27,090 bases of DNA from Candidatus Parcubacteria bacterium (lineage in GTDB: Bacteria; Patescibacteriota; Patescibacteriia; PEXW01). This document shows positions 10,103 to 25,053 of the stretch, piece after piece. The notes under the pieces are model-generated. The model saw nothing but the letters and a program-made list of their open reading frames with translations. It was not told the origin of the DNA and made no database searches. The DNA lies in the NCBI GenBank assembly GCA_003597955.1, contig QZJU01000002.1, positions 1-27,090 of the forward strand, read 5' to 3'. The first letter of the stretch is position 1, and every line of letters starts with the position of its first letter. The position numbers and the translations under genes were made by a program.

Positions 10103-10534
10103 ATGTTTATCGGTGAATACCACCATGGGATTGATGAAAAGGGCCGGTTAGCCATACCAGTCAAATTTCGTGAGCGGCTGATGCACGGCGCCGTGGTCAC
10201 GCGGGGGATTGATAAGTGTCTTTTTGTTTACCCCCATCGGGATTGGATGCAATTGGCCGACAAATTAGCCAAGCTGCCGATTTCCCAAGCCAACACCCGA
10301 GCTTTTTCCAGATTGATGCTGGCTGGGGCCATGCAGCTGGAAATTGATAAGCAAGGCCGGGTGGTTGTGCCGGACTACCTCCGAAAATACGGCGGAATAA
10401 AGAAGAAGGTTGTGGTGGCTGGTTTATATAATCGTTTGGAAATTTGGGACGAAACGGTTTGGGAAAGATACAAAGCCGGGACGGAAAAAACCTCTGGGAC
10501 CATCGCGGAAAATCTCGGGGCTTTAGGCGTTTAA
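10103..10534 (+). CDS. mraZ: Transcriptional regulator MraZ
   Basis: 143 residues. I start it at the ATG at 10103 (MFIGEYHHGID), where the family normally begins, not at the in-frame GTG at 10076 that lies inside the DnaA box. Two AbrB-like halves are clear: DEKGRLAIPVKFRERL near the start and DKQGRVVVPDYLRKY in the middle, each the swapped-hairpin DNA-binding unit. MraZ forms a ring that binds direct repeats ahead of the dcw operon and controls it, usually as a repressor of its own promoter. The matching operator is present at 10011-10060. No SD is visible. rsmH follows 14 bases after the stop. Confidence 0.95.
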   Translation: MFIGEYHHGIDEKGRLAIPVKFRERLMHGAVVTRGIDKCLFVYPHRDWMQLADKLAKLPISQANTRAFSRLMLAGAMQLEIDKQGRVVVPDYLRKYGGIKKKVVVAGLYNRLEIWDETVWERYKAGTEKTSGTIAENLGALGV

Positions 10535-10548
10535 AGGTTAGGGGACCC

Positions 10549-11544
10549 ATGCCTGCCCCGAACCACTCGCTTCGCTCGGATTCAGGGCGGGCCCCTCAAC
10601 ACACACCTGTTCTTTTAGAAGAAGTACTAAAACTTACTCAACCCCAAAGCGGTGATACGGTGATTGATTGCACCCTGGGTTCGGGCGGTTATGCGAAAAG
10701 GTTTTTGGAAGCGACCGAGCCGACCGGAAGGTTGTTGGGTCTGGACCGCGATGCGGTCGCCATCCAACTGGCCAAAACGAAATTGGGCGAATATCAGGCA
10801 AGAATGATTTTGAAACATGGCAGGTTCGGCGCTTTGAAAAGTTTAATCGGCGATTTTCCCCGGCCGGACATTATCGTGGCCGACCTGGGTTTATCCAGTT
10901 TCGCGCTGGATGACGAGCAAAGAGGGTTTGCTTTTCAAAAGTTTGGGCCATTGGATATGCGAATGGATCAGACTTCTGGAAAAACCGCGGCGGAACTTTT
11001 AAACACCCTGGAGCTAAGGGAGCTGGAAAGGATTTTAAAAAATTTCGGCGAAGAGCGCCAAGCCGGCAAAATCGCCAGGGCGATTGTTGAACGGCGGAAA
11101 ACCAAAAGTTTTTCCACCACCCAGGATCTGGTTCAAATAGTCGAAGCAGTTTACCGAGAAGTTTTAAAAGCCCAGCCTGGCCAGAAAATTTGGCTCAAGC
11201 GCCAAATTCACCCGGCCACCCAGACCTTTCAGGCTTTCCGCATCGCGGTTAATGACGAAATTTCCGAACTGGAAAAATTTCTACCCCAAGCCTTTGAAAT
11301 TTTAAAACCCGGCGGCCGGTTAGCAATCGTTTCCTTCCATTCTTTGGAAGACCGCCTGGTGAAAAATTTTTTTCGCAATCAGGCCAAGATTTGTTCATGC
11401 CCGGCTGAGCAATTGCAATGTACTTGCGACCGCATCCCGGCTGGAAAACTTTTAAACAAAAAACCCATTCAGCCCAATTCTGCCGAGATCCAAATAAACC
11501 CGCGGGCCCGCAGCGCCAAGCTCCGAATCATTCAAAAAAACTAA
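10549..11544 (+). CDS. rsmH: 16S rRNA m4C1402 methyltransferase RsmH
   Basis: 331 residues from ATG 10549, which has AGGGGA just upstream. Conserved blocks are HTPVLLEEVL (about 18-27), the SAM-binding DCTLGSGGYAKRF, GPLDMRMDQ, RQIHPATQTFQAFRIAVNDE and FHSLEDRLVKNFF. The enzyme N4-methylates C1402 of 16S rRNA in the decoding centre. The reading frame overlaps mraZ further upstream, but that part is not family-like. The first 17 residues (MPAPNHSLRSDSGRAPQ) are encoded by a GC-rich hairpin and are absent from typical RsmH. It is the second gene of the dcw operon. Confidence 0.95.
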   Translation: MPAPNHSLRSDSGRAPQHTPVLLEEVLKLTQPQSGDTVIDCTLGSGGYAKRFLEATEPTGRLLGLDRDAVAIQLAKTKLGEYQARMILKHGRFGALKSLIGDFPRPDIIVADLGLSSFALDDEQRGFAFQKFGPLDMRMDQTSGKTAAELLNTLELRELERILKNFGEERQAGKIARAIVERRKTKSFSTTQDLVQIVEAVYREVLKAQPGQKIWLKRQIHPATQTFQAFRIAVNDEISELEKFLPQAFEILKPGGRLAIVSFHSLEDRLVKNFFRNQAKICSCPAEQLQCTCDRIPAGKLLNKKPIQPNSAEIQINPRARSAKLRIIQKN

Positions 11545-11545
11545 A

Positions 11546-11905
11546 ATGTCCAAGTTCACTAAATTTTTTAAGAAACACCCCTTCAAGCCCCAGCCCAGAG
11601 ATTCCGAAAACCGGGAAGCGCTTTGGCGCGCGAACAACTTGCCGATGGTATTAGGTTTTTTAATCGTGATTTTGGCCATTGGTTATCTTTTCCAAATCAA
11701 CCGCAGTTCTACCAAAAGTTTTACTGTTCATGCTTTAGTCAAGAAACAAAATGCCTTGCTGGAGCAGAGGCGCGCCCTGGAGCTTCAGCAAGCCGAACTT
11801 TCCGCACTGACGAATCTGGAGAATTCTCCGGTCATAACCGGAATGGTGGCCAGCACGAATGCCGAATACCTGTTGCCGCCAACGGCTGATGTGGCGCGAA
11901 AATAA
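11546..11905 (+). CDS. ftsL: FtsL-like cell-division protein
   Basis: 119 residues with a basic cytoplasmic start, one membrane helix (about 34-50) and a coiled coil (about 62-92, rich in Leu/Glu/Gln/Ala) outside. This is the FtsL/FtsB layout of the septal complex that links FtsI and FtsW to the divisome. Sequence similarity is low in this family, so the call rests on topology and on its position between rsmH and ftsI, the standard dcw order. It starts two bases after the rsmH stop, implying coupling. The tail after the coil is short and polar. Confidence 0.75.
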   Translation: MSKFTKFFKKHPFKPQPRDSENREALWRANNLPMVLGFLIVILAIGYLFQINRSSTKSFTVHALVKKQNALLEQRRALELQQAELSALTNLENSPVITGMVASTNAEYLLPPTADVARK

Positions 11906-11920
11906 TTTAAGCATTTTGCC

Positions 11921-13666
11921 ATGGTGAAACGGCTCCGTCCACGGACTTCGCCGCACCGCTACGACCGTCTGGGTATATTTCAGGCGATCGTGGTTGGTTT
12001 TGCCGCGATTATCGCGATCCGGCTTTTTACTTTGCAGATTCTCCGCCATGAAGCCTATGCCTCGATCGCGGAAAACCAGCACAATCTTAGTTCCAAATTA
12101 ACCCCGAACCGCGGGGATATCTTTGTCAAAGACCGCGCCAATCCGGACGAGCTTTTTCCTTTAGCCACCAGCCGGGACGAACCTTTGGTTTATGCGGTTC
12201 CGGACACGATTACCGATCCTCAAGCAACAGCCACGGCTCTGGCGCCGATTTTGGGCATTTCCAGCGAGGAATTAATCCCGAAATTAAGCAAGCCCAAAGA
12301 TGTTTATGAGGTTTTAAAACGCCGTTTACAGCCCACCGAGGTGGCCGCGATTGAAGGCTTGCAGCTGAAAGGCATAAAGTTCGAAAACGAAAGATGGCGC
12401 TATTATCCGGAAAAAAATCTGGCCAGCCACCTGATCGGTTTTGTCGGCTACCAAGGCGATGACAAAAAAGGCGTTTACGGCGTTGAAGCTGCGTTGGATG
12501 AAGTTTTGGCTGGTACGGCCGGCAAATTACAGGAAGAATCTTCGGCTCGGGCTTTTTTGCCGGTGGGCGCTGGTTTTTTTGCCGAGGCCATTAACGGCGC
12601 AAATGTGATTTTAACTTTGGATCACACCGTGCAATACCAAGCGTGCAGCAAATTGGCAACAGCGGTTTCCAAGCACGGCGCGGACGGAGGAGCTTTGGCG
12701 ATCATGGAAGTTCAGACTGGCCGGCTTTTAGCCGTGTGCGGCCAGCCGGATTTTGATCCCAACGAATACAATAAGACTGAAAATCCCTCGGCTTTCAACA
12801 ACCCCGTGGTTTTCGGCGCTTACGAACCCGGTTCGGTTTTTAAAGCAATAACCATGGCCACGGCTTTGGACCTGGGCAAAGTCACGCCCCAAAGCACCTA
12901 TGTCGATACGGGCCAGGTGAAAATCGGCTCTTTTACCATTCGCAACTCTGACGAAAAAGCGTACGGCACCCAAACTATGGTTCAGGTTCTGGAAAAATCT
13001 TTGAACACCGGCGCCATTCATGCGGCTGAATTGGTGGGCCGGCCGAGTTTTTCCAAGTATGTAAAAAATTTCGGTTTTGGGGAAAAGACCGGCGTAGAAT
13101 TGAGCGGCGAAGTGGAGGGCAATATCAGCTCCTTGACCAAATCCGGAGACATTTTTTTGGCGACGGGTTCGTTCGGCCAAGGCTTGACCGTAACGCCGAT
13201 TCAGCTGTTGGCGGCTTTTGGTGCGATCGCCAATAGTGGCAAACTGCTCAAACCTTATTTGGTTGACGAAATCCGCTATCCTGACGGTAAAGTTGAAAAA
13301 AATGAAATCCAGGTCGTGCGCCAAGTCATCCGTCCAGACACAGCCTCGACTTTGGCCGCCATGCTGGTAAATGTGGTGGAGCGCGGCCACGGTCAGCGTG
13401 CCGGGGTCAAGGGTTATTATGTTGCCGGCAAGACCGGCACCGCCCAGGTCCGCGCGACAACTGGCTCGGGTTATGACCCGCACAAAACCATTGGCACTTT
13501 TGCTGGTTTTGCGCCGGTTGAGAGTCCTCGATTTGCCATGGTGGTCAGGATAGATGTGCCCAAGGATGTGCAATTTGCCGAGAGCTCGGCTGCCCCGTTA
13601 TTTGGGGAGGTTATGGACTTTCTCTTAAAGTATTACGATATCGCGCCGACCCGACTAACGCCTTAA
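11921..13666 (+). CDS. ftsI: Septal peptidoglycan transpeptidase FtsI (class B PBP)
   Basis: 581 residues. One membrane anchor (about 19-40) leads to the PBP dimerisation region (NRGDIFVKDR, then HLIGFVGYQGDDKKGVYGVE) and a transpeptidase domain with the three active-site motifs: SVFK (305-308, catalytic S305), SLN (360-362) and KTGT (504-507). It cross-links septal peptidoglycan outside the membrane with FtsW. No PASTA domain is present. The length is typical. It follows ftsL by 15 bases; a 37-base gap with a small hairpin (ACAGC/GCTGT) separates it from murF. Confidence 0.93.
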   Translation: MVKRLRPRTSPHRYDRLGIFQAIVVGFAAIIAIRLFTLQILRHEAYASIAENQHNLSSKLTPNRGDIFVKDRANPDELFPLATSRDEPLVYAVPDTITDPQATATALAPILGISSEELIPKLSKPKDVYEVLKRRLQPTEVAAIEGLQLKGIKFENERWRYYPEKNLASHLIGFVGYQGDDKKGVYGVEAALDEVLAGTAGKLQEESSARAFLPVGAGFFAEAINGANVILTLDHTVQYQACSKLATAVSKHGADGGALAIMEVQTGRLLAVCGQPDFDPNEYNKTENPSAFNNPVVFGAYEPGSVFKAITMATALDLGKVTPQSTYVDTGQVKIGSFTIRNSDEKAYGTQTMVQVLEKSLNTGAIHAAELVGRPSFSKYVKNFGFGEKTGVELSGEVEGNISSLTKSGDIFLATGSFGQGLTVTPIQLLAAFGAIANSGKLLKPYLVDEIRYPDGKVEKNEIQVVRQVIRPDTASTLAAMLVNVVERGHGQRAGVKGYYVAGKTGTAQVRATTGSGYDPHKTIGTFAGFAPVESPRFAMVVRIDVPKDVQFAESSAAPLFGEVMDFLLKYYDIAPTRLTP

Positions 13667-13703
13667 AATGACAGCTTCTAGAAATGCTGTTAAGGTTTAA
13701 ATT

Positions 13704-14990
13704 ATGAAGCGTTTCTTCTTAAAAATTTTGGAATTTAAATTGGTTTTTTTTGCCAAGCGGGTTTTGAGCCGCTACCAACCCAAAATTGTGGCCGTAGCCG
13801 GTTCTGTCGGCAAAACTTCCACGGTGCAGGCCATTGCTTTGGCTTTGGCCAAAGATTTCCGGGTCGGGCAGACTCTGCGCAGCTACAATCAGGAATTAGG
13901 CGTGCCTTTGTCCATCTTGCGCCAAGAAACCGGCTACCGGTCTTTGTGGCGCTGGCTGAAGATTTTTTTACGCGCAGCGGGTTTGGCTTTTGGTCGGAAG
14001 AAATCAGATTTTCCCCAAGTTTTAGTTTTGGAGCTGGGCGCGGACAAGCCTGGCGATTTGGAGCGCTTGTTAAATTGGGTTAAACCGGAAATTGGCGTGT
14101 TAACCTCAGCCACGGTCGAACATGTGGAATTTTTCGGTTCGATTGAAGCGGCGATTGCCGAAGAGCAAAAATTAGTGAAGTCTTTGCCCAAAAATGCCGT
14201 TGCGGTTTTAAATGCGGATGATCCGAATGTAGTCGCGGCAACCCCGCAAATAAGAGCAAAAATAATTCGTTACAGCCAAAATCAGTCAGCCGAAGTCCAA
14301 GTCAATAATGCCGCGATCCTGGGCGAGAATGTAAAAAATCTCCAAGGGGTGAGCGCCAAAATTAGCGTCAGTGGCAGTTCCATACCCGTAGTCATCCAAG
14401 ACACTGTTGGCCGGCATTCTTTATACGCTGTTGCCGCGGCTTTTGCCGTGGCGCACGCTTTGCAGGTAAATCTCTCCAATGTTTCCGAACAGCTGCGCAA
14501 GTATCAGCCACCGGCCGGGCGCATGCGTTTGTTAAAAGGCGTAAAAGACACTTTGATTATTGACGACACTTACAATTCTTCGCCAGCCGCGGCGAAAGCG
14601 GCCCTGGACACTTTGGCCGAGCTCGAGACGCCCGCCAAAAAATACGCGATCCTGGGCGACATGCGGGAGCTGGGGCCGGTCAGCGAAGAAGAACACGTTA
14701 AGATCGGCCAATATGTTTTGGGCAAAGCCGATTATTTGATCACCGTCGGTGAGCAAGCCAAGCACATTGCCAACGGTGCCAAGTTCGCCGGTTTCCCTAT
14801 CGATCGGATTTTGAGCTTTGACAAGCCTGAAGGCGTTGGGAATTTCCTTCAAGATCGTTTATTAGCCCAGGATTTGATTTTGGTGAAAGGTTCCCAAGGC
14901 ATCCGCTGCGAAAAAGTGGTTAAAGAAATTATGGCAGAACCCGAAAGAGCCAGCGAATTGCTAACCCGCCAGTATTGGCCTTGGATTTAA
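13704..14990 (+). CDS. murF: Mur ligase, MurF-type, lacking the usual N-terminal domain
   Basis: 428 residues. The ATP-binding P-loop GSVGKTST is at 33-40; NAVAVLNADDPNV, DDTYNSSPAAAKAAL and AILGDMRELG are MurF signatures of the central and C-terminal domains. MurF adds D-Ala-D-Ala to the UDP-MurNAc-tripeptide. In E. coli MurF the P-loop comes only after a substrate-binding domain of about 100 residues; here that domain is replaced by a short basic/hydrophobic stretch (FFLKILEFKLVFFAKRV) that could lie on the membrane. The substrate may thus differ. It is the last gene of the cluster; murE, which often sits between ftsI and murF, is missing. Confidence 0.8.
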   Translation: MKRFFLKILEFKLVFFAKRVLSRYQPKIVAVAGSVGKTSTVQAIALALAKDFRVGQTLRSYNQELGVPLSILRQETGYRSLWRWLKIFLRAAGLAFGRKKSDFPQVLVLELGADKPGDLERLLNWVKPEIGVLTSATVEHVEFFGSIEAAIAEEQKLVKSLPKNAVAVLNADDPNVVAATPQIRAKIIRYSQNQSAEVQVNNAAILGENVKNLQGVSAKISVSGSSIPVVIQDTVGRHSLYAVAAAFAVAHALQVNLSNVSEQLRKYQPPAGRMRLLKGVKDTLIIDDTYNSSPAAAKAALDTLAELETPAKKYAILGDMRELGPVSEEEHVKIGQYVLGKADYLITVGEQAKHIANGAKFAGFPIDRILSFDKPEGVGNFLQDRLLAQDLILVKGSQGIRCEKVVKEIMAEPERASELLTRQYWPWI

Positions 14991-18871: not shown

Positions 18872-20347
18872 ATGAGGACAATAAGTAAGCTCGTTGCCGT
18901 CATGCAGAAATTGGATGCGGGCGTCATAAGTGATAGCACTGCACAGGAGGCTTTTAGTTACGAGTTAATCAAACAGAGGTATTTGGAAATGGACGATTTG
19001 CAATACCTCTATAACCTCTTTAGGATTTATTTTCAAAATCCGACTACACCCGCCAGCACGATTTTGAAGAGCCTAAACATTAGCCTTGAGAAATTGGTGG
19101 ACCTGCAGAGAGTACTCCAAGAGGCGTCAGTCATCGCAGATTTATGGATAAGTTTACTTTATCCGCGTTCGCTTCTGATGCGCTATGCGTATCAACTGAC
19201 TCGCTATCTGCATTTGAATCCAGAGTTCCTGAGTTCTGCGCACCAAGACTCCGCCCAGCCGCATATTTATATGCTAGAAATTCACCCAACGAACGGTTTA
19301 TGTATTTATGCATGTAAAATGTGCCTTTGGTGTGGTGGCGGGCAACTGAAGGCACGCCAGATACGTGCTAGTGCTGGCATTGATGTGCTACCGACACGTA
19401 GTTGGATCAGCGTCTTGGATGAGGCGAAAGATCTGGGAGTTGAGCGGATAATTGTTTCTGGTGGAGGGGAAACGCTCTTGGATCAGGTGAAATTCAGGGA
19501 GGTAGTATTGGCCGCGGTCAGAAATGGTATTGAAGTCTTGGTTTACACCAATGGTCGCCTTCTCTCTCGTGTAGACGAAGAAACCCTGGATGTTATTTTA
19601 CATACTGGGTGGTTGCGGGTGAGTTGCCATGCTGCAACATCCGAGGTGTATGCACGGCTGGTCAACCGGCCCGTAGATAGTAATGATTTTCAGATTGTGC
19701 AAGCGGGCGTGCGAAGACTCATTGAACGCCGGAATGCAGTACATGCACGTCTAAAGGTCGGACTTGGGACAGTGTTGCAGGAGGTGAACTTTTCGCAACT
19801 ACCGTTAATTGTGACGCTTTGTGAAAATCTGGGTGTTGACTTCCTGGACCTACGCGCGGATTGCATTGGTATCTCACAGGCACTCAAGGCTGAGCAGAGC
19901 GTACTGTTATTGAATGATTTACGGGTAATACGCGGAAGGTACTTAGATGGCGGGTTGCCATTTCATCTGACAATTGCTGATGATCTTCAGTTTAAAATTA
20001 GCCAATGGTCAAAGATGGAACTCACACCTTCAAAAAGGTGCTGGATTCCGTTCCTCCGGCCAGCTATCGACCCGTTCGGGACAGTATGCGCATGCGATTC
20101 AATTGGCGAACCTTATACGCGGTCGGTTTCACCCGCGAAGTATGTTTTTGGATCATGTAGGGATGATTCGCTTCGGCAGCTCATCTCGAGAGCCTCGCAG
20201 GAAACGTTAGGTGTTTGGTGTCAACATTGCATGCCGGGGCAGGTTGCGCTGAATGCACTTTTCGAAAAAATAGTTGCCGACTTCAAAATTGGCATTCGCC
20301 CGTGCGATCAGCCTTTTTTCCACCGGAATATTGAGGGATCCAATTAG
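18872..20347 (+). CDS. Radical SAM enzyme with SPASM-like C-terminal cysteines
   Basis: 491 residues. C144, C148 and C151 form the CxxxCxxC that holds the SAM-cleaving 4Fe-4S cluster, with an extra C154; GGGE (197-200) is the SAM-binding GGE motif. The C-terminal part has C390, C406, C408, C429, C450 and C453 around IDPFGTVCAC, as in SPASM/twitch domains that hold auxiliary clusters. The first 130 residues are helical and unrecognised. SPASM enzymes often modify ribosomal peptides or proteins; the substrate here is unknown. Codon choice looks different from the dcw genes (more CTA, GTA, CGT), hinting at transfer. It overlaps the opposing Nudix gene by four bases. Confidence 0.85.
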   Translation: MRTISKLVAVMQKLDAGVISDSTAQEAFSYELIKQRYLEMDDLQYLYNLFRIYFQNPTTPASTILKSLNISLEKLVDLQRVLQEASVIADLWISLLYPRSLLMRYAYQLTRYLHLNPEFLSSAHQDSAQPHIYMLEIHPTNGLCIYACKMCLWCGGGQLKARQIRASAGIDVLPTRSWISVLDEAKDLGVERIIVSGGGETLLDQVKFREVVLAAVRNGIEVLVYTNGRLLSRVDEETLDVILHTGWLRVSCHAATSEVYARLVNRPVDSNDFQIVQAGVRRLIERRNAVHARLKVGLGTVLQEVNFSQLPLIVTLCENLGVDFLDLRADCIGISQALKAEQSVLLLNDLRVIRGRYLDGGLPFHLTIADDLQFKISQWSKMELTPSKRCWIPFLRPAIDPFGTVCACDSIGEPYTRSVSPAKYVFGSCRDDSLRQLISRASQETLGVWCQHCMPGQVALNALFEKIVADFKIGIRPCDQPFFHRNIEGSN

Positions 20348-20886
20348 GGTCTCTCATTTTTTTGAAAAAAAATATTCAAGCACGCAAGTGAGATTCCGCA
20401 TTGTATCTTATTCAGAGCAATTAGCTTTTTTATTTTTGTGAGCGGTATTAGCTGAATTTTATTAATTACCTCGTTGGATGGAGTGGTTCTTTTCTTGGCT
20501 TCTGTACAATTCGAAGCCACGAACAGATTTGCTTGAATGCTTTCATGTCCAGGAGCAATAAAGAATGAACCATACTTTTTCCATATTTTTGCTCGGTAAC
20601 CAGTTTCCTGGAGTAACTCCCGTTGTGCTGCATGTAAATCACCTTCGTTCACATTAGTTGTTCCGGCCGGTAACTGTAAAATAATTTTTTTTATCGGATA
20701 TCTATATTCGTTGATAAAAAGTATTTTGTTTTTAATTTGTGCAATTACAAAATTTACGTGTGGCCGTTCCACTATACCATATATCCCCCTTTTTCCGTCA
20801 GGTCTTTTGACCGCGTCTTCTCGTACACGAAACCAAGGATTGTGATAGACAATTTGAGATTTGATTGTTTTCCATCCAACGCGCAT
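20344..20886 (-). CDS. Nudix hydrolase, ADP-ribose pyrophosphatase-like
   Basis: 180 residues from ATG 20886. The Nudix box G75-x5-E81-x7-R89-E90-L-L-Q93-E94-T-G96-Y97 matches the consensus except that the first Glu of the EE pair is Gln. VFR-type start (NPWFRVREDAVKRPDG) and QLPAG before the box fit the ADP-ribose pyrophosphatase branch, which splits ADP-ribose to AMP and ribose 5-phosphate. The Q93 change hits a usual metal ligand, so activity may be weak or altered. An extended -10 (TGTTATAAT, minus strand, 20929-20921) precedes it; no SD. It meets the radical SAM gene tail to tail with a four-base overlap. Confidence 0.85.
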   Translation of the reverse strand: MRVGWKTIKSQIVYHNPWFRVREDAVKRPDGKRGIYGIVERPHVNFVIAQIKNKILFINEYRYPIKKIILQLPAGTTNVNEGDLHAAQRELLQETGYRAKIWKKYGSFFIAPGHESIQANLFVASNCTEAKKRTTPSNEVINKIQLIPLTKIKKLIALNKIQCGISLACLNIFFQKNERP

Positions 20887-21281: not shown

Positions 21282-21309
21282 CCAATTTCGCAATGGCATT
21301 TAGGATTGA

Positions 21310-21415
21310 CCCCGCACCACTTTCCAAATTAAGCCTTAAGTTTAGCGTAAGGTTATTTGCTTAATTGAATATCATTGTGCTATGTGTAGGCGTTTTGTTG
21401 GAAAGTGGTGCGGGG
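21310..21415. mobile_element. MITE-like element, 106 bp, with 18-bp terminal inverted repeats
   Basis: CCCCGCACCACTTTCCAA (21310-21327) is repeated exactly in inverse at 21398-21415. TTGA flanks it on both sides (21306-21309 and 21416-21419), as expected for a 4-bp target duplication. Inside, AATTAAG/CTTAATT and CCTTA/TAAGG can pair, so the whole folds into a long hairpin. It encodes nothing, so a transposase elsewhere would have to move it. Confidence 0.6.
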
Positions 21416-21502
21416 TTGACAAAACTTAATAATCTGCTAGCTTTATCTCAAGCGCCGTCGTGGAATCAGAGCCGTCGCGAAAAAATTAAATAACTTAGGT
21501 TT

Positions 21503-22525
21503 ATGGCTAAAAGCCTGCCAAAAATCTGCCTGATGTTTGCCGGTGGTTCAACCCTTCAGATTGAAGAGGGGAAAGTAATGACTGTGAATTCAGCTGGCGA
21601 TATTAGGGCTTGGATGGATCAGGTTCCGGAACTTGCTTTAATCGCTCAAGTCGAGCCGGTTTTTATTTGGCCTGACGGCAAGCACATCGAAATACCAGAT
21701 TGGAATGTTTTAGCGAAATACATCAATCAAACCTACGAAAGGTTTGATGGTTTTGTAATACTGCAAGGCGTGGACACCATACTCTACACCAGCGCCTTTT
21801 TTTCTTATACATTGCAGGGTTTAGCCAAGCCCATTGTCCTAACCGGTTCGCCTTTGACTCCAGCTTTGCAGGCTAGCAAGGCGGCGGAAAAAGCAACTTT
21901 GAATTATCGCAACCTTGGCGTAAGAGCAAATTTGATAAACGCCATCCAAGTCGCCACCTTTAATGTTCCGGAAGTTATTATCGCGTTTGGGAATCAGATA
22001 ATGCGCGCCAATCGCGCCAGTAAATCGACGACAATTTCTTTCAACATGTTTAATGCTGAAGAGAGGGATATTCTGGGTCGGGTGGATTTCGGCATTAAAC
22101 TAAAAAGCGAGAGTGAAAAAAAAGTTGAGCAGAAAAGAATTCATGTTACGGAAGTTAAGCCGGCGAACATTAAAGTCATTACCCTGCACCCAGGTTTCGA
22201 ACCCGCGGAATTGGCTGAAGCCATACAAACTCTGCCGGACGGAATTTTAGTTCAAACATTTTTGCAGGAAGGCTGGCCCGAGAATTTGCGTCAGATTTTA
22301 AAAATCGCCAATGCCAAGGGAGTTCCAGTCGTCGTGCTGAATCCATATTTCGCGCTTGAGACCGAATGGGCGAATGTCAAGATCGTTTCCGGCATAACTT
22401 TAGAAGCGCTTTATGCTAAGTTTCTTTGGGCGCTGGCAAAAGCCAAAAACCCGCAAGTGGTTTTGCAGTTAATCAGCCAAAACCGCGCGGGCGAATTTGG
22501 TCTGACGGAGAAAAAGGCAAAGTAG
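21503..22525 (+). CDS. Asparaginase-fold protein lacking both catalytic threonines
   Basis: 340 residues spanning both domains of the type I/II L-asparaginase fold, including NAIQVATFNVPEVIIAFG and a C-terminal domain with ITLHPGF and ILVQTF. Aligned on E. coli AnsB, the nucleophile motif TGGTI reads AGGST (T12 becomes A13), and the second triad motif HGTDT reads QGVDT (T89 becomes V90). D91 and K174 of the second triad remain. Active members hydrolyse L-asparagine, so this protein is probably inactive or has another role such as ligand binding. The ATG at 21503 has only a weak SD. It leads a tight three-gene operon, with the next start one base after its stop. Confidence 0.8.
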   Translation: MAKSLPKICLMFAGGSTLQIEEGKVMTVNSAGDIRAWMDQVPELALIAQVEPVFIWPDGKHIEIPDWNVLAKYINQTYERFDGFVILQGVDTILYTSAFFSYTLQGLAKPIVLTGSPLTPALQASKAAEKATLNYRNLGVRANLINAIQVATFNVPEVIIAFGNQIMRANRASKSTTISFNMFNAEERDILGRVDFGIKLKSESEKKVEQKRIHVTEVKPANIKVITLHPGFEPAELAEAIQTLPDGILVQTFLQEGWPENLRQILKIANAKGVPVVVLNPYFALETEWANVKIVSGITLEALYAKFLWALAKAKNPQVVLQLISQNRAGEFGLTEKKAK

Positions 22526-22526
22526 T

Positions 22527-23129
22527 ATGCGTATCTACTTTTTCCAAGCTCCGTCCGACAAGGCTCGCTTCGAGAATGTCCGTCAGGAAATTCTTGATAT
22601 TTTGGAAATGAAGAAAATTTTCTATGTCACCTCTGACGGCAGAAATAGCTTTGACATTCCAGCTGAAGAATTGGAAGCCTTGAACGAGAGCGGAGGTTCA
22701 ATGCTGGATAAAATGGATGCTTTGATAATTGAAGGCTCCACCCCGAATGCCGATATTGGTTATTTGCTGGCTTACGCCATGAGCCTGCGCCGTCCCGTGC
22801 TGTATTTGTACGATAAAGATATTTCCAACAAAGGCGTTTTAAAATTTTTAGGCAACCGCCAAATTCCATCAAATATTCACGTTAAGTCATACAGTGGGGG
22901 ACAAGCGAAAGAAATTGTCGAGAAATTCCTAACCGGTCTTCAGGGCGAGGAAGCGCAGGCCTTGCCGACCATTAAATTTACATTAAGAATTACGCCGCAG
23001 ATGGAAAGGTATTTGCAGTGGAAGGCAAAAAAATTTAAGATGACCAAGGCCGATTTCTTGCGGGAAAAGATTTCCGAAGAAATCATGAAAAACGACGAGG
23101 AATATAAAAGGTATTTAGGAAGGAAATGA
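22527..23129 (+). CDS. Deoxyribosyltransferase-like domain fused to a ribbon-helix-helix domain
   Basis: 200 residues. Residues 1-138 resemble nucleoside 2-deoxyribosyltransferases: an opening strand (MRIYFFQAP), then ALIIEGSTPNADIGYLLAYA (65-84). In the family the segment reads like TPSxGVGYELGxA, where the Glu of YEL is the nucleophile; here it is L80. E69 remains. Residues 148-190 look like a ribbon-helix-helix DNA-binding unit: strand KFTLRI, helix TPQMERYLQWKAKKF, turn KMTKADF, helix LREKISEEIM. A nucleotide-sensing regulator is the simplest reading. It starts one base after the asparaginase-like stop and ends one base before the next gene. Confidence 0.7.
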   Translation: MRIYFFQAPSDKARFENVRQEILDILEMKKIFYVTSDGRNSFDIPAEELEALNESGGSMLDKMDALIIEGSTPNADIGYLLAYAMSLRRPVLYLYDKDISNKGVLKFLGNRQIPSNIHVKSYSGGQAKEIVEKFLTGLQGEEAQALPTIKFTLRITPQMERYLQWKAKKFKMTKADFLREKISEEIMKNDEEYKRYLGRK

Positions 23130-23130
23130 T

Positions 23131-24516
23131 ATGAAATATGTAATTTTATTGGCGGCGATATTGAATTTTATCCTAGCCATGTCGGTTCGCCGAAGATCCG
23201 TAAACCGAATTCAAAGAAATTTTTCAAATTTTATTTTTTTAATTGCGGTTTGGGTTTTGGTAAATTTTATTTATTTTAACCTTCCGAAATACCCATTTGT
23301 GCATTTAAGTTATAGCATTGGCGCAATAGTGATTGCCGCCATATTTTTCTGGACAATTAAGTTTACTAAGACAAAAATTACCCGCTTTGTTAGAAACTCA
23401 GTTTTATTGATCACAGTTTTGCTAATCGTGGGTACGCTTATTCCAAGCGCTTTCTTAGGTACACACTTGACCTTTACGAAATTAGGATTTGAAATTACAG
23501 CTGGACCACTTTTTAACATCTATTCAATTTTAGCGAGTTGTATACTATTGGTGTCTATTGCATTATTAGCTAAAGCATTTTTAAAGGCAAAGGGACTCGA
23601 ACGCCTAAGGATGTCATATGTGGCCTTAGGTTTTATTGTTCCGATAATAATTGTCGTGATTTTTGATTTTATATTGCCAATTTTTGGAATTTTTGTGTTT
23701 GCAAGCTTGGATAGTATCACTTCTTTTATTTTTGCTTTTGGCGTTGCTTACGCAATAACGCGTTACCAATTTTTTGATATCAAGATCGTTTTCCAAAAAA
23801 GCTTTGTGCAGTTGATGACTTTTGTGATATTATTCGCGATTTATGCTTACGTTCTAATCTTGGTTCAAAATCTTTCCAGCAAGTCAGTTGCCTTAAATAA
23901 CAATACCGGCTTATTAATCACCATCTTTATAATCGCATTGACCATTGAGCCTCTGCGCAAATGGATTTATAAAGTTATCGACGGGATTTTTGAAAATAAA
24001 GAAAAGCAAAGGCAGCTAAGTTTGAAAAAGATTGAGTTAATTACAAAATCTACTTTGCAGTTTCAGACCCTTTTGACAAAAACCAAAAAAGAATTAGAAG
24101 AGATTTTCGGGCCCGAGATTGATTTTTATCTGGCCGAAAGGAAGACTGGCAATTTTATTCAATATCCGAAAGGTGGGAAGAAACTGATGATTGAAAGTCC
24201 GACCGGAATCAAAATATTGTCCGGCAACGTTTTAATAACCGATGAACTTCTTTTTAGGATTGAAAACGGCGAAAGCGCTTTTGTTCACGCTTTAGATTGG
24301 CTGAAACAAAATAATTATTCGGCAGTCATTCCTATCGGCTCGGGCGATGAAATGGTCGGCATATTTTGCCTGAGCCAAAACCTAAAGCAGCAAAAATTTA
24401 TTACCGCAGACACAGTGGGATTTTTAAAGGAATTCCAAGAGCAAATCTTTTTCCCGTTTGCTAGTGCGTATGCTTATAAATTGGCTATTGAAAGAATCAC
24501 GAGCGATAAGCACTAA
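23131..24516 (+). CDS. Multi-pass membrane sensor (7TM histidine-kinase-type N-terminus) with GAF-like tail
   Basis: 461 residues with an SD (GGAAGGA). About nine hydrophobic helices fill residues 4-273 and resemble the histidine-kinase N-terminal 7TM region; AFGVAYAITRYQFFDIKIVFQKS (about 200-222) is typical of it. A linker helix (about 280-320, ENKEKQRQLSLKKIELI) leads to a GAF-like domain (about 325-455: FGPEIDFYLAER, YSAVIPIGSGDEMVGIFCLSQ). No phospho-accepting His box or ATPase domain follows, so it is a sensor without a kinase. It is the third gene of the operon, with one base between genes. Confidence 0.75.
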   Translation: MKYVILLAAILNFILAMSVRRRSVNRIQRNFSNFIFLIAVWVLVNFIYFNLPKYPFVHLSYSIGAIVIAAIFFWTIKFTKTKITRFVRNSVLLITVLLIVGTLIPSAFLGTHLTFTKLGFEITAGPLFNIYSILASCILLVSIALLAKAFLKAKGLERLRMSYVALGFIVPIIIVVIFDFILPIFGIFVFASLDSITSFIFAFGVAYAITRYQFFDIKIVFQKSFVQLMTFVILFAIYAYVLILVQNLSSKSVALNNNTGLLITIFIIALTIEPLRKWIYKVIDGIFENKEKQRQLSLKKIELITKSTLQFQTLLTKTKKELEEIFGPEIDFYLAERKTGNFIQYPKGGKKLMIESPTGIKILSGNVLITDELLFRIENGESAFVHALDWLKQNNYSAVIPIGSGDEMVGIFCLSQNLKQQKFITADTVGFLKEFQEQIFFPFASAYAYKLAIERITSDKH

Positions 24517-24519
24517 GCA

Positions 24520-25053
24520 CGAAATTCTAAATTCTAAATAAATTATAATGATTCAAATTTCAAATTCTAAGAAAATACGATTTGGAAGATAGAACACTGA
24601 AATTTGCGAACGAGGTTATTCAATTTATTGCCAAAGTTCCAAGAAATATTTCTTGTATTGAAATCACCAAACAACTTGTCAGGTCAGCCGGATCAGTCGG
24701 CGCTAATTATATTGAAGCCAATGAGTCTTTGAGTAAAAAAGATTTCTTAATGCGAATTAGAATTTGCAAAAAAGAAGCCAAGGAAACGCGTTATTGGTTA
24801 AATTTACTTGAAGTTGCGGAAACATTGAATAAAGTGAAGACATATTTAATTCAAGAGGTTACCGAATTTATGAAAATTTTCGGCGCGATAATTGAAAAAA
24901 GCAAATAACTGGAAGGGTAAATCTGAAATATAAATTCCAAAAATCCTAAACAAACATTAAGGTTCTACAAACGAATTTCTAATGCGTTTAAGGAATTAGA
25001 ATTTGATATTTGAGTTTTGTTTAGAATTTAGATATTAGAATTTAGGATTTCGA
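24520..25053. repeat. Inverted-repeat unit enclosing the four-helix-bundle gene
   Basis: The left arm (24520-24571) contains CGAAATTCTAAATTCTAA and TCAAATTTCAAATTCTAA. The right arm (24991-25053), read on the minus strand, contains CGAAATCCTAAATTCTAA and TCAAATATCAAATTCTAA, each with one mismatch and in the same order. RNA from this unit could fold with the gene in the loop, as in 23S rRNA intervening sequences. No rRNA sequence is seen around it. Confidence 0.6.
24582..24908 (+). CDS. Four-helix bundle protein (23S rRNA intervening-sequence family)
   Basis: 108 residues from TTG 24582. EDRTLKFANEVIQFIAKVP, QLVRSAGSVGANYIEANESLSKKDFLMRIRICKKEAKETRYWLNLL and the closing helices are unmistakable for the TIGR02436 four-helix bundle (S23/IVP) family, which occurs in 23S rRNA insertions and as free genes and is related to Avd of diversity-generating retroelements. 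The function is not established; RNA or protein scaffolding is suspected. Homologues usually begin with M-K-K-Y-D-L-E; here RKYDLE is present in frame upstream of the TTG, but no standard start precedes it (the frame is open back to TGA at 24549), so the start may be ATT or may be lost. Confidence 0.8.
   Translation: MEDRTLKFANEVIQFIAKVPRNISCIEITKQLVRSAGSVGANYIEANESLSKKDFLMRIRICKKEAKETRYWLNLLEVAETLNKVKTYLIQEVTEFMKIFGAIIEKSK

Follow-up and report, generated by a model that had tools for sequence, protein, structure and literature searches.

Paired degenerate enzymes with a ribbon-helix-helix tail and an operator-like element: a probable self-regulating gene-control circuit in Patescibacteria

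Two adjacent genes, one coding for a type I asparaginase fold with an eroded active site (gene A) and the other for a DNPH1/Rcl-like domain that has lost its catalytic Glu and carries a ribbon-helix-helix (RHH) tail (gene B), were found to recur as a pair in Patescibacteria together with a paired GCCGTC element. Joined in some genomes by a kinase-less seven-transmembrane (7TM) protein (gene C), they probably make up a self-regulating gene-control circuit in which B would be the autoregulator, A its dead-enzyme partner and C a membrane input. Read directly from the compared sequences are the architecture, the loss of catalytic residues, the pairing of A with B, the element, and the link between that element and B. 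The window analysed here is a stretch of 27,090 nucleotides from a Candidatus Parcubacteria bacterium (contig QZJU01000002.1), and the three open reading frames of the operon lie where an earlier sequence-only reading had placed them (Table 1), with one base between A and B and between B and C.

Table 1. Coordinates of the operon, its domains, catalytic positions and upstream elements in the window
Feature	Position	Strand	Remarks
Possible -35 hexamer, TTGACA	21416..21421	+	from end of dispersed repeat; strong -10 absent
Operator-like element, GCCGTC-N11-GCCGTC	21454..21476	+	26 bp 5' of A start codon
Gene A	21503..22525	+	340 aa, type I asparaginase fold, degenerate active site
S16 codon of A	21548..21550	+	aligns with first catalytic Thr (TGGT motif)
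V90 codon of A	21770..21772	+	aligns with second catalytic Thr (GTDT motif)
K174 codon of A	22022..22024	+	aligns with catalytic Lys; retained in window A
Gene B	22527..23129	+	200 aa; RHH tail follows DNPH1/Rcl-like domain
Rcl/DNPH1-like domain of B	22527..22955	+	about residues 1-143; Foldseek and profile
L80 codon of B	22764..22766	+	site of DNPH1 catalytic Glu; GYELG vs GYLLA alignment
RHH tail of B	22968..23096	+	about residues 148-190; KFTLR stretch then two helices
Gene C	23131..24516	+	461 aa, kinase-less 7TM protein, GAF-like domain
7TM region of C (HisKA_7TM)	23131..23781	+	
GAF-like region of C	24223..24447	+	PF01590 E 0.013, 16.5 bits vs cut-off 22.4

Queries against 95 genomes matched B in 22 and A in 24, part of the A matches being ordinary asparaginases with B absent. 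A profile search with B gave strong full-length matches in 70 of 380 genomes of the class, which we infer to be ABY1, and the named B-bearing records were mostly Kerfeldbacteria, Buchananbacteria and unplaced Patescibacteria. A adjoined B in 64 of the 68 parsed class loci, on the same strand every time, and was located immediately 5' of B in 58, with a short ORF intervening in six. By profile count A was present at 67 of 71 B loci; it was the profiles, not ORF picking, that detected B at L051 and L060 and A at L118. These are mostly draft assemblies with mechanically assigned gene starts, and the family members are related, so that the locus counts are of non-independent events. Recurrence of the A-B pair, which spans many families, is far above chance. 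Neither outcome that the sequence-only reading had named as counting against it was seen, since the homologues lack intact catalytic sets and the order is not unique to the window genome. The three-gene make-up that it proposed was retained only in part, since A-B forms the conserved core while C is optional and most A-B loci have no adjacent 7TM gene.

Both A and B were absent from the other sampled members of the genus and family of the window genome (three drafts, 77-90% complete), and the distribution of the pair is therefore patchy. Taxonomic families grouped as clades in a tree of A, which suggests mostly vertical descent of the pair. A DNA-pattern search of named genomes returned zero relatives of A. 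No description of an A-B(-C) system was found in the open papers searched, and by that limited search the circuit is apparently undescribed.

Gene A matched PF00710 (E 1.4e-31), as did 20 of 20 A family members scanned, and the best Foldseek matches of its model (pLDDT 83.7) were type I asparaginases (asparaginase I, E 2e-22). The catalytic positions of the window protein are occupied by S16, V90, D91 and K174, the Asp and Lys thus being retained. Among the 67 members aligned, the first catalytic Thr position was T in 30, S in 9 and another residue in the remainder, the second was Thr or Ser in only seven and mostly Thr in control asparaginases, and the Lys was retained in 12. Counting Thr or Ser as retained at both Thr positions, 13 members kept none of the four positions, 29 kept one, 13 kept two, 12 kept three and none kept four, and the full Thr-Thr-Asp-Lys set occurred in 0 of 67. 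Six asparaginase-like genes from the same class served as controls, and all but one had the catalytic set whole or nearly so; a supported branch of the tree splits all pair-type A from these six and one gene of another class. Pair-type A also has conserved residues of its own (E43 and Q149) and an insert ahead of the NLINA motif. The earlier description of an asparaginase fold without its threonines stands insofar as S16 and V90 replace both, with the reservation that the Ser could in principle serve as nucleophile. The window protein is among the less eroded members, and residual activity is possible as it keeps Ser, Asp and Lys. The E. coli type I asparaginase is described as allosteric in the record title of 2HIM/2P2D, which makes ligand sensing by A plausible.

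Gene B itself had no Pfam match above cut-off, and its family profile matched Rcl/DNPH1 (E 3.6e-7). Searched against the PDB with Foldseek, the B model (pLDDT 81.7) had DNPH1/Rcl throughout its top 50 matches listed. The catalytic Glu of the GYE motif was present in 0 of 71 B members; Leu takes its place in 43, and Val, Phe, Ile, Trp, Met or Gln in the others. The loss of Glu claimed by the sequence-only reading was thus borne out in every member, while the fold it had assigned to the deoxyribosyltransferases is closer to DNPH1/Rcl than to deoxyribosyltransferase proper. DNPH1 is a deoxynucleotide N-hydrolase that binds deoxynucleoside monophosphates, and a nucleotide-like ligand for B is therefore plausible.

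In the RHH tail proposed for B, residues K150, T152, R154, A175 and R179 are invariant in 71 of 71 members, and the K, T and R of the KFTLR stretch are the DNA-facing positions of the RHH strand. The monomer model has tail helices at 157-169 and 174-188, the strand itself forming only in a dimer. Weak matches to NikA-like, HicB, RHH_1, RHH_3 and CopG models were obtained, with the window member below cut-off, and a profile of the tail alone matched zero RHH proteins of known structure. Other classes of the phylum also have NDT/Rcl domains with RHH-like tails, the Glu being intact in some, and A was not near these genes with the sole exception of L173. A tandem pair of NDT-RHH genes in L188 (6433-7589) has the catalytic Glu intact in the first, and the same tail is joined to GAF domains in two genomes of another class (L192 5373-5924, L193 3527-5464). 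These NDT/Rcl-RHH and GAF-RHH fusions support the view that the tail is a portable output module for DNA binding.

Gene C matched HisKA_7TM (PF16927, E 1.9e-12) with zero matches to HisKA or HATPase domains, which together with the weak GAF match agrees with its earlier description as a kinase-less membrane protein with a GAF-like domain. Homologues of C adjoin A-B in other taxonomic families, and 25 of 68 loci, spread over seven families, have a C-type 7TM protein no more than three genes away from B, where about 1-2 were expected from the 188 such genes in 70 genomes (the 7TM search model was itself built from A-B loci). L051, from an eighth family, has three 7TM proteins in a row. The partners are of two kinds: 7TM-only proteins of about 230 aa, encoded 5' of A, and C-like ones of about 460 aa, encoded 5' or 3'. 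By this distribution across the compared loci, C is a recurrent yet optional partner and A-B the core.

Several features of the surrounding genes were noted. In L133-L135, L138, L140, L148 and relatives the cluster consists of 7TM+GAF, 7TM, A, B, alpha/beta hydrolase and AMP-binding ligase genes, some adding an acyltransferase and HAD gene, with a 7TM-GAF histidine kinase downstream; this cluster looks like one for lipid use. In the window, an ORF resembling the 23S rRNA-intervening-sequence (four-helix) proteins is located directly 3' of C (24582-24908), and L057, L119 and L120 also have four-helix-type ORFs that either adjoin A and B or separate the two. A NUDIX hydrolase gene (20344-20886) and a radical SAM/SPASM-like gene (18872-20347) lie just 5' of the window operon, and division and cell-wall genes (10444-14990; MraW, FtsI-like, Mur ligase) about 6.5 kb 5' of it. 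A-B is directly or nearly 3' of a division/cell-wall cluster in L052, L054, L063-L066 and others.

A conserved operator near the operon had been suggested, and a paired GCCGTC element was identified at the operon start. In a wider pass covering up to 4.5 kb upstream of B, a perfect pair was present in 44 of 68 loci, the window locus among them, where even base composition would predict about 0.3. A stricter count at operon gene starts gave a perfect pair in 36 of 64 loci compared with 1 of 6,400 shuffles, and a pair at any spacing of 8-34 was found near the A start in 21 of 67 loci compared with 0.1% of shuffles. The motif and spacing were chosen after 35 of the 68 upstream regions had been inspected by eye, so that those 35 are non-independent; the element was found in 18 of the 33 loci left out of motif discovery. 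Spacing in the 44 loci was 18 bp in 26, 17 in 10, 19 in five and 16 in three, and the arrangement was direct (FF16 and RR15), inverted (FR12) or everted (RF1). In 31 of 44 loci, compared with about 14 in shuffles, the 26 bp 5' of the element contain a TATAAT-like hexamer (no more than one mismatch), the element often lying 9-12 bp 3' of the hexamer, and where a 7TM gene heads the operon the element precedes that gene. A promoter scan of the window operon gave none above threshold. A palindromic repeat of about 110 bp is located 5' of A in the window (21307-21420, GACCCCGCACCACTTTCC ... GGAAAGTGGTGCGGGG), and one of its genome copies precedes an ssb gene. This long inverted repeat was rejected as the operator because it is dispersed through the genome in many copies.

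The class was scanned with the pattern AGCCGTCN{10,13}GCCGTC, which needs a leading A and so misses the window site and all inverted pairs. The pattern was present in 53 of 70 genomes with B compared with 51 of 310 without (Fisher p 2e-21), and 58 of the 78 sites in B genomes were within 15 kb of B where 2.2 were expected; with related genomes not independent, the p-values of these comparisons are too favourable. Zero GCCGTC pairs were found at 51 Rcl/NDT control loci outside the pair type, some of them only 2-3 kb long. In the window genome the operon site was the only promoter-like copy, two other copies lying within coding-looking sequence, and the element was absent at the one ssb gene examined there.

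Elsewhere, 19 loci featured two pairs 60-140 bp apart, 3' of a strong promoter, and in most of them a DnaA-box-like sequence follows the second pair (L052, L054-L059, L107, L108, L111, L112, L115-L118, L121, L274, L284, L289). The double pair was located within 0.4 kb 5' of ssb in families f42 and f34 and in one locus each of f22, f52 and f94, and 0.7-2.4 kb upstream of ssb in some other loci; ssb was not seen beside it in f13, f43, f73 and f75. In four f43 loci (L107, L108, L111, L112) a terminator-like hairpin was judged by eye to lie between the pairs. The double-pair promoter region is possibly a small RNA or leader. A replication origin before ssb, considered for the DnaA-box-like sequences, was dropped as dnaA was located on other contigs. 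Six f6 genomes had a single inverted pair between an rnhB-like gene and an ssb gene that was not beside A-B, and many genomes have two ssb genes. In families f6 and f67 the element also precedes five genes whose RHS core domain scored above cut-off (G008 has three of them, G185 and G277 one each), as well as a YD-repeat gene of G335, a draft genome where B was not found. RHS-core genes were present in 10 of 15 genomes checked, and the other first genes 3' of element sites were varied.

Taken as a mechanism, B would bind through its RHH tail the paired GCCGTC half-sites just 3' of the -10 box of the A-B operon, most likely as a repressor, autorepression being the simplest reading for an RHH protein with a likely operator overlapping its own transcription start. 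A nucleotide-like ligand or a protein partner of the dead DNPH1/Rcl-like domain most likely shifts DNA binding, and A, made in step with B, most likely binds or tunes B with perhaps an amino-acid-like ligand as its own input. Where present, C or other kinase-less 7TM proteins would supply a membrane input without phosphotransfer, and for a route from C to B the Mlc-PtsG pair may serve as the nearest working analogy. Candidate targets are the operon itself, the ssb gene in several families and secreted RHS proteins in two families. The transcription-linked circuit of the sequence-only reading is partly supported: it gains from the conservation of two degenerate enzymes, the operator-like element and the 7TM enrichment (25 of 68 loci), and loses in that C is optional. 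Binding of B to the element, repression, contact between A and B, the nature of the ligands and signalling from C are what we infer from these patterns. A broader proposal, that a 7TM sensor, a dead asparaginase and a dead RHH-tailed deoxynucleotide hydrolase read nutrient- or host-derived signals without phosphotransfer and switch ssb and secreted RHS proteins together, is tentative and on balance doubtful.

Pattern matches in 51 of the 310 genomes without B, and a single promoter-like copy in the window genome, count against the operator reading; its principal weakness is the clade of f41, f44, f62 and f69, which has A-B and the invariant KxTxR strand with the GCCGTC pair absent at the operon. 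GAF-RHH loci share the same strand residues and also lack the element, so that the RHH strand alone does not predict it. Both observations would fit a different regulator that travels with A-B and binds GCCGTC, with A and B as effectors or sensors under it and the RHH tail directed at another target. We consider this unlikely, as B has a DNA-binding fold and the element lies where an autoregulator would usually have its site, at the beginning of the operon that encodes B. The repeat could also act in RNA as a leader element and not as a DNA operator, given that it is located within the probable 5' leader and inverted copies could fold as a hairpin. Both direct orientations were, however, as common as the inverted one (FF16, RR15, FR12, RF1), which an RNA reader should not tolerate, and Rfam matched only tRNA in the loci scanned, so little credence is given to this explanation.

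It is conceivable that A and B are enzymes of altered chemistry, with Ser for Thr in A and another acid in B, forming an amino-acid and nucleotide salvage pair with an autoregulatory RHH tail as in PutA. The S16, D91 and K174 of window A and the Glu retained in some NDT-RHH proteins of other classes are consistent with this, but the four A positions vary freely over 67 members, 13 of which retain none, and B has Glu in 0 of 71 with mostly aliphatic substitutes, which makes a salvage pair improbable. A pair of toxin-antitoxin-like or defence type, with A neutralised by the RHH protein, would account for the tight two-gene spacing, the patchy distribution and an RHH protein that probably autoregulates its operon. 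This is very unlikely given zero PADLOC matches, the degenerate active site of A, the mostly vertical descent suggested by the family clades, and unlinked element sites such as those 5' of ssb. A self-regulating circuit with B as autoregulator is the reading we prefer.

To our knowledge gene regulation in uncultured Patescibacteria is nearly unmapped. Here sequence alone points to a regulator family, its probable operator and a few candidate targets, which makes binding and regulation testable with purified proteins and short DNA. The pair would also exemplify the joint loss of catalysis in two different enzymes that serve as control partners, with a hint that DNA handling and secreted RHS proteins fall under one circuit.

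The individual parts resemble known proteins. A shares its fold with type I L-asparaginase (AnsA), and differs in that no A has the full catalytic set and in E43, Q149 and the pre-NLINA insert. B shares the fold of the 2'-deoxynucleoside 5'-phosphate N-hydrolase DNPH1/Rcl over residues 1-143, adds the RHH tail and has lost the Glu (71 of 71). C has the 7TM input and GAF-like part of 7TM sensor histidine kinases (PF16927) without HisKA or HATPase. For the system as a whole, the closest likenesses are PutA, NrtR and the ROK repressors. PutA combines an RHH repressor with an active proline dehydrogenase and autoregulates; B likewise joins an RHH part to a metabolic-enzyme domain, but that domain lacks the catalytic Glu, has the DNPH1/Rcl fold and has a second dead enzyme, A, as a fixed partner. 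NrtR is a Nudix-derived transcription regulator in which a nucleotide-binding enzyme fold is the ligand sensor of a DNA-binding protein, combining a winged helix with Nudix where B combines RHH with Rcl, and only B has an asparaginase-fold partner. The ROK repressors Mlc and NagC, with PtsG, have an inactive enzyme-type fold controlled by a membrane partner, a working scheme similar to that of A-B-C, although sequence kinship is absent, the folds are different and the membrane step of A-B-C is a proposal.
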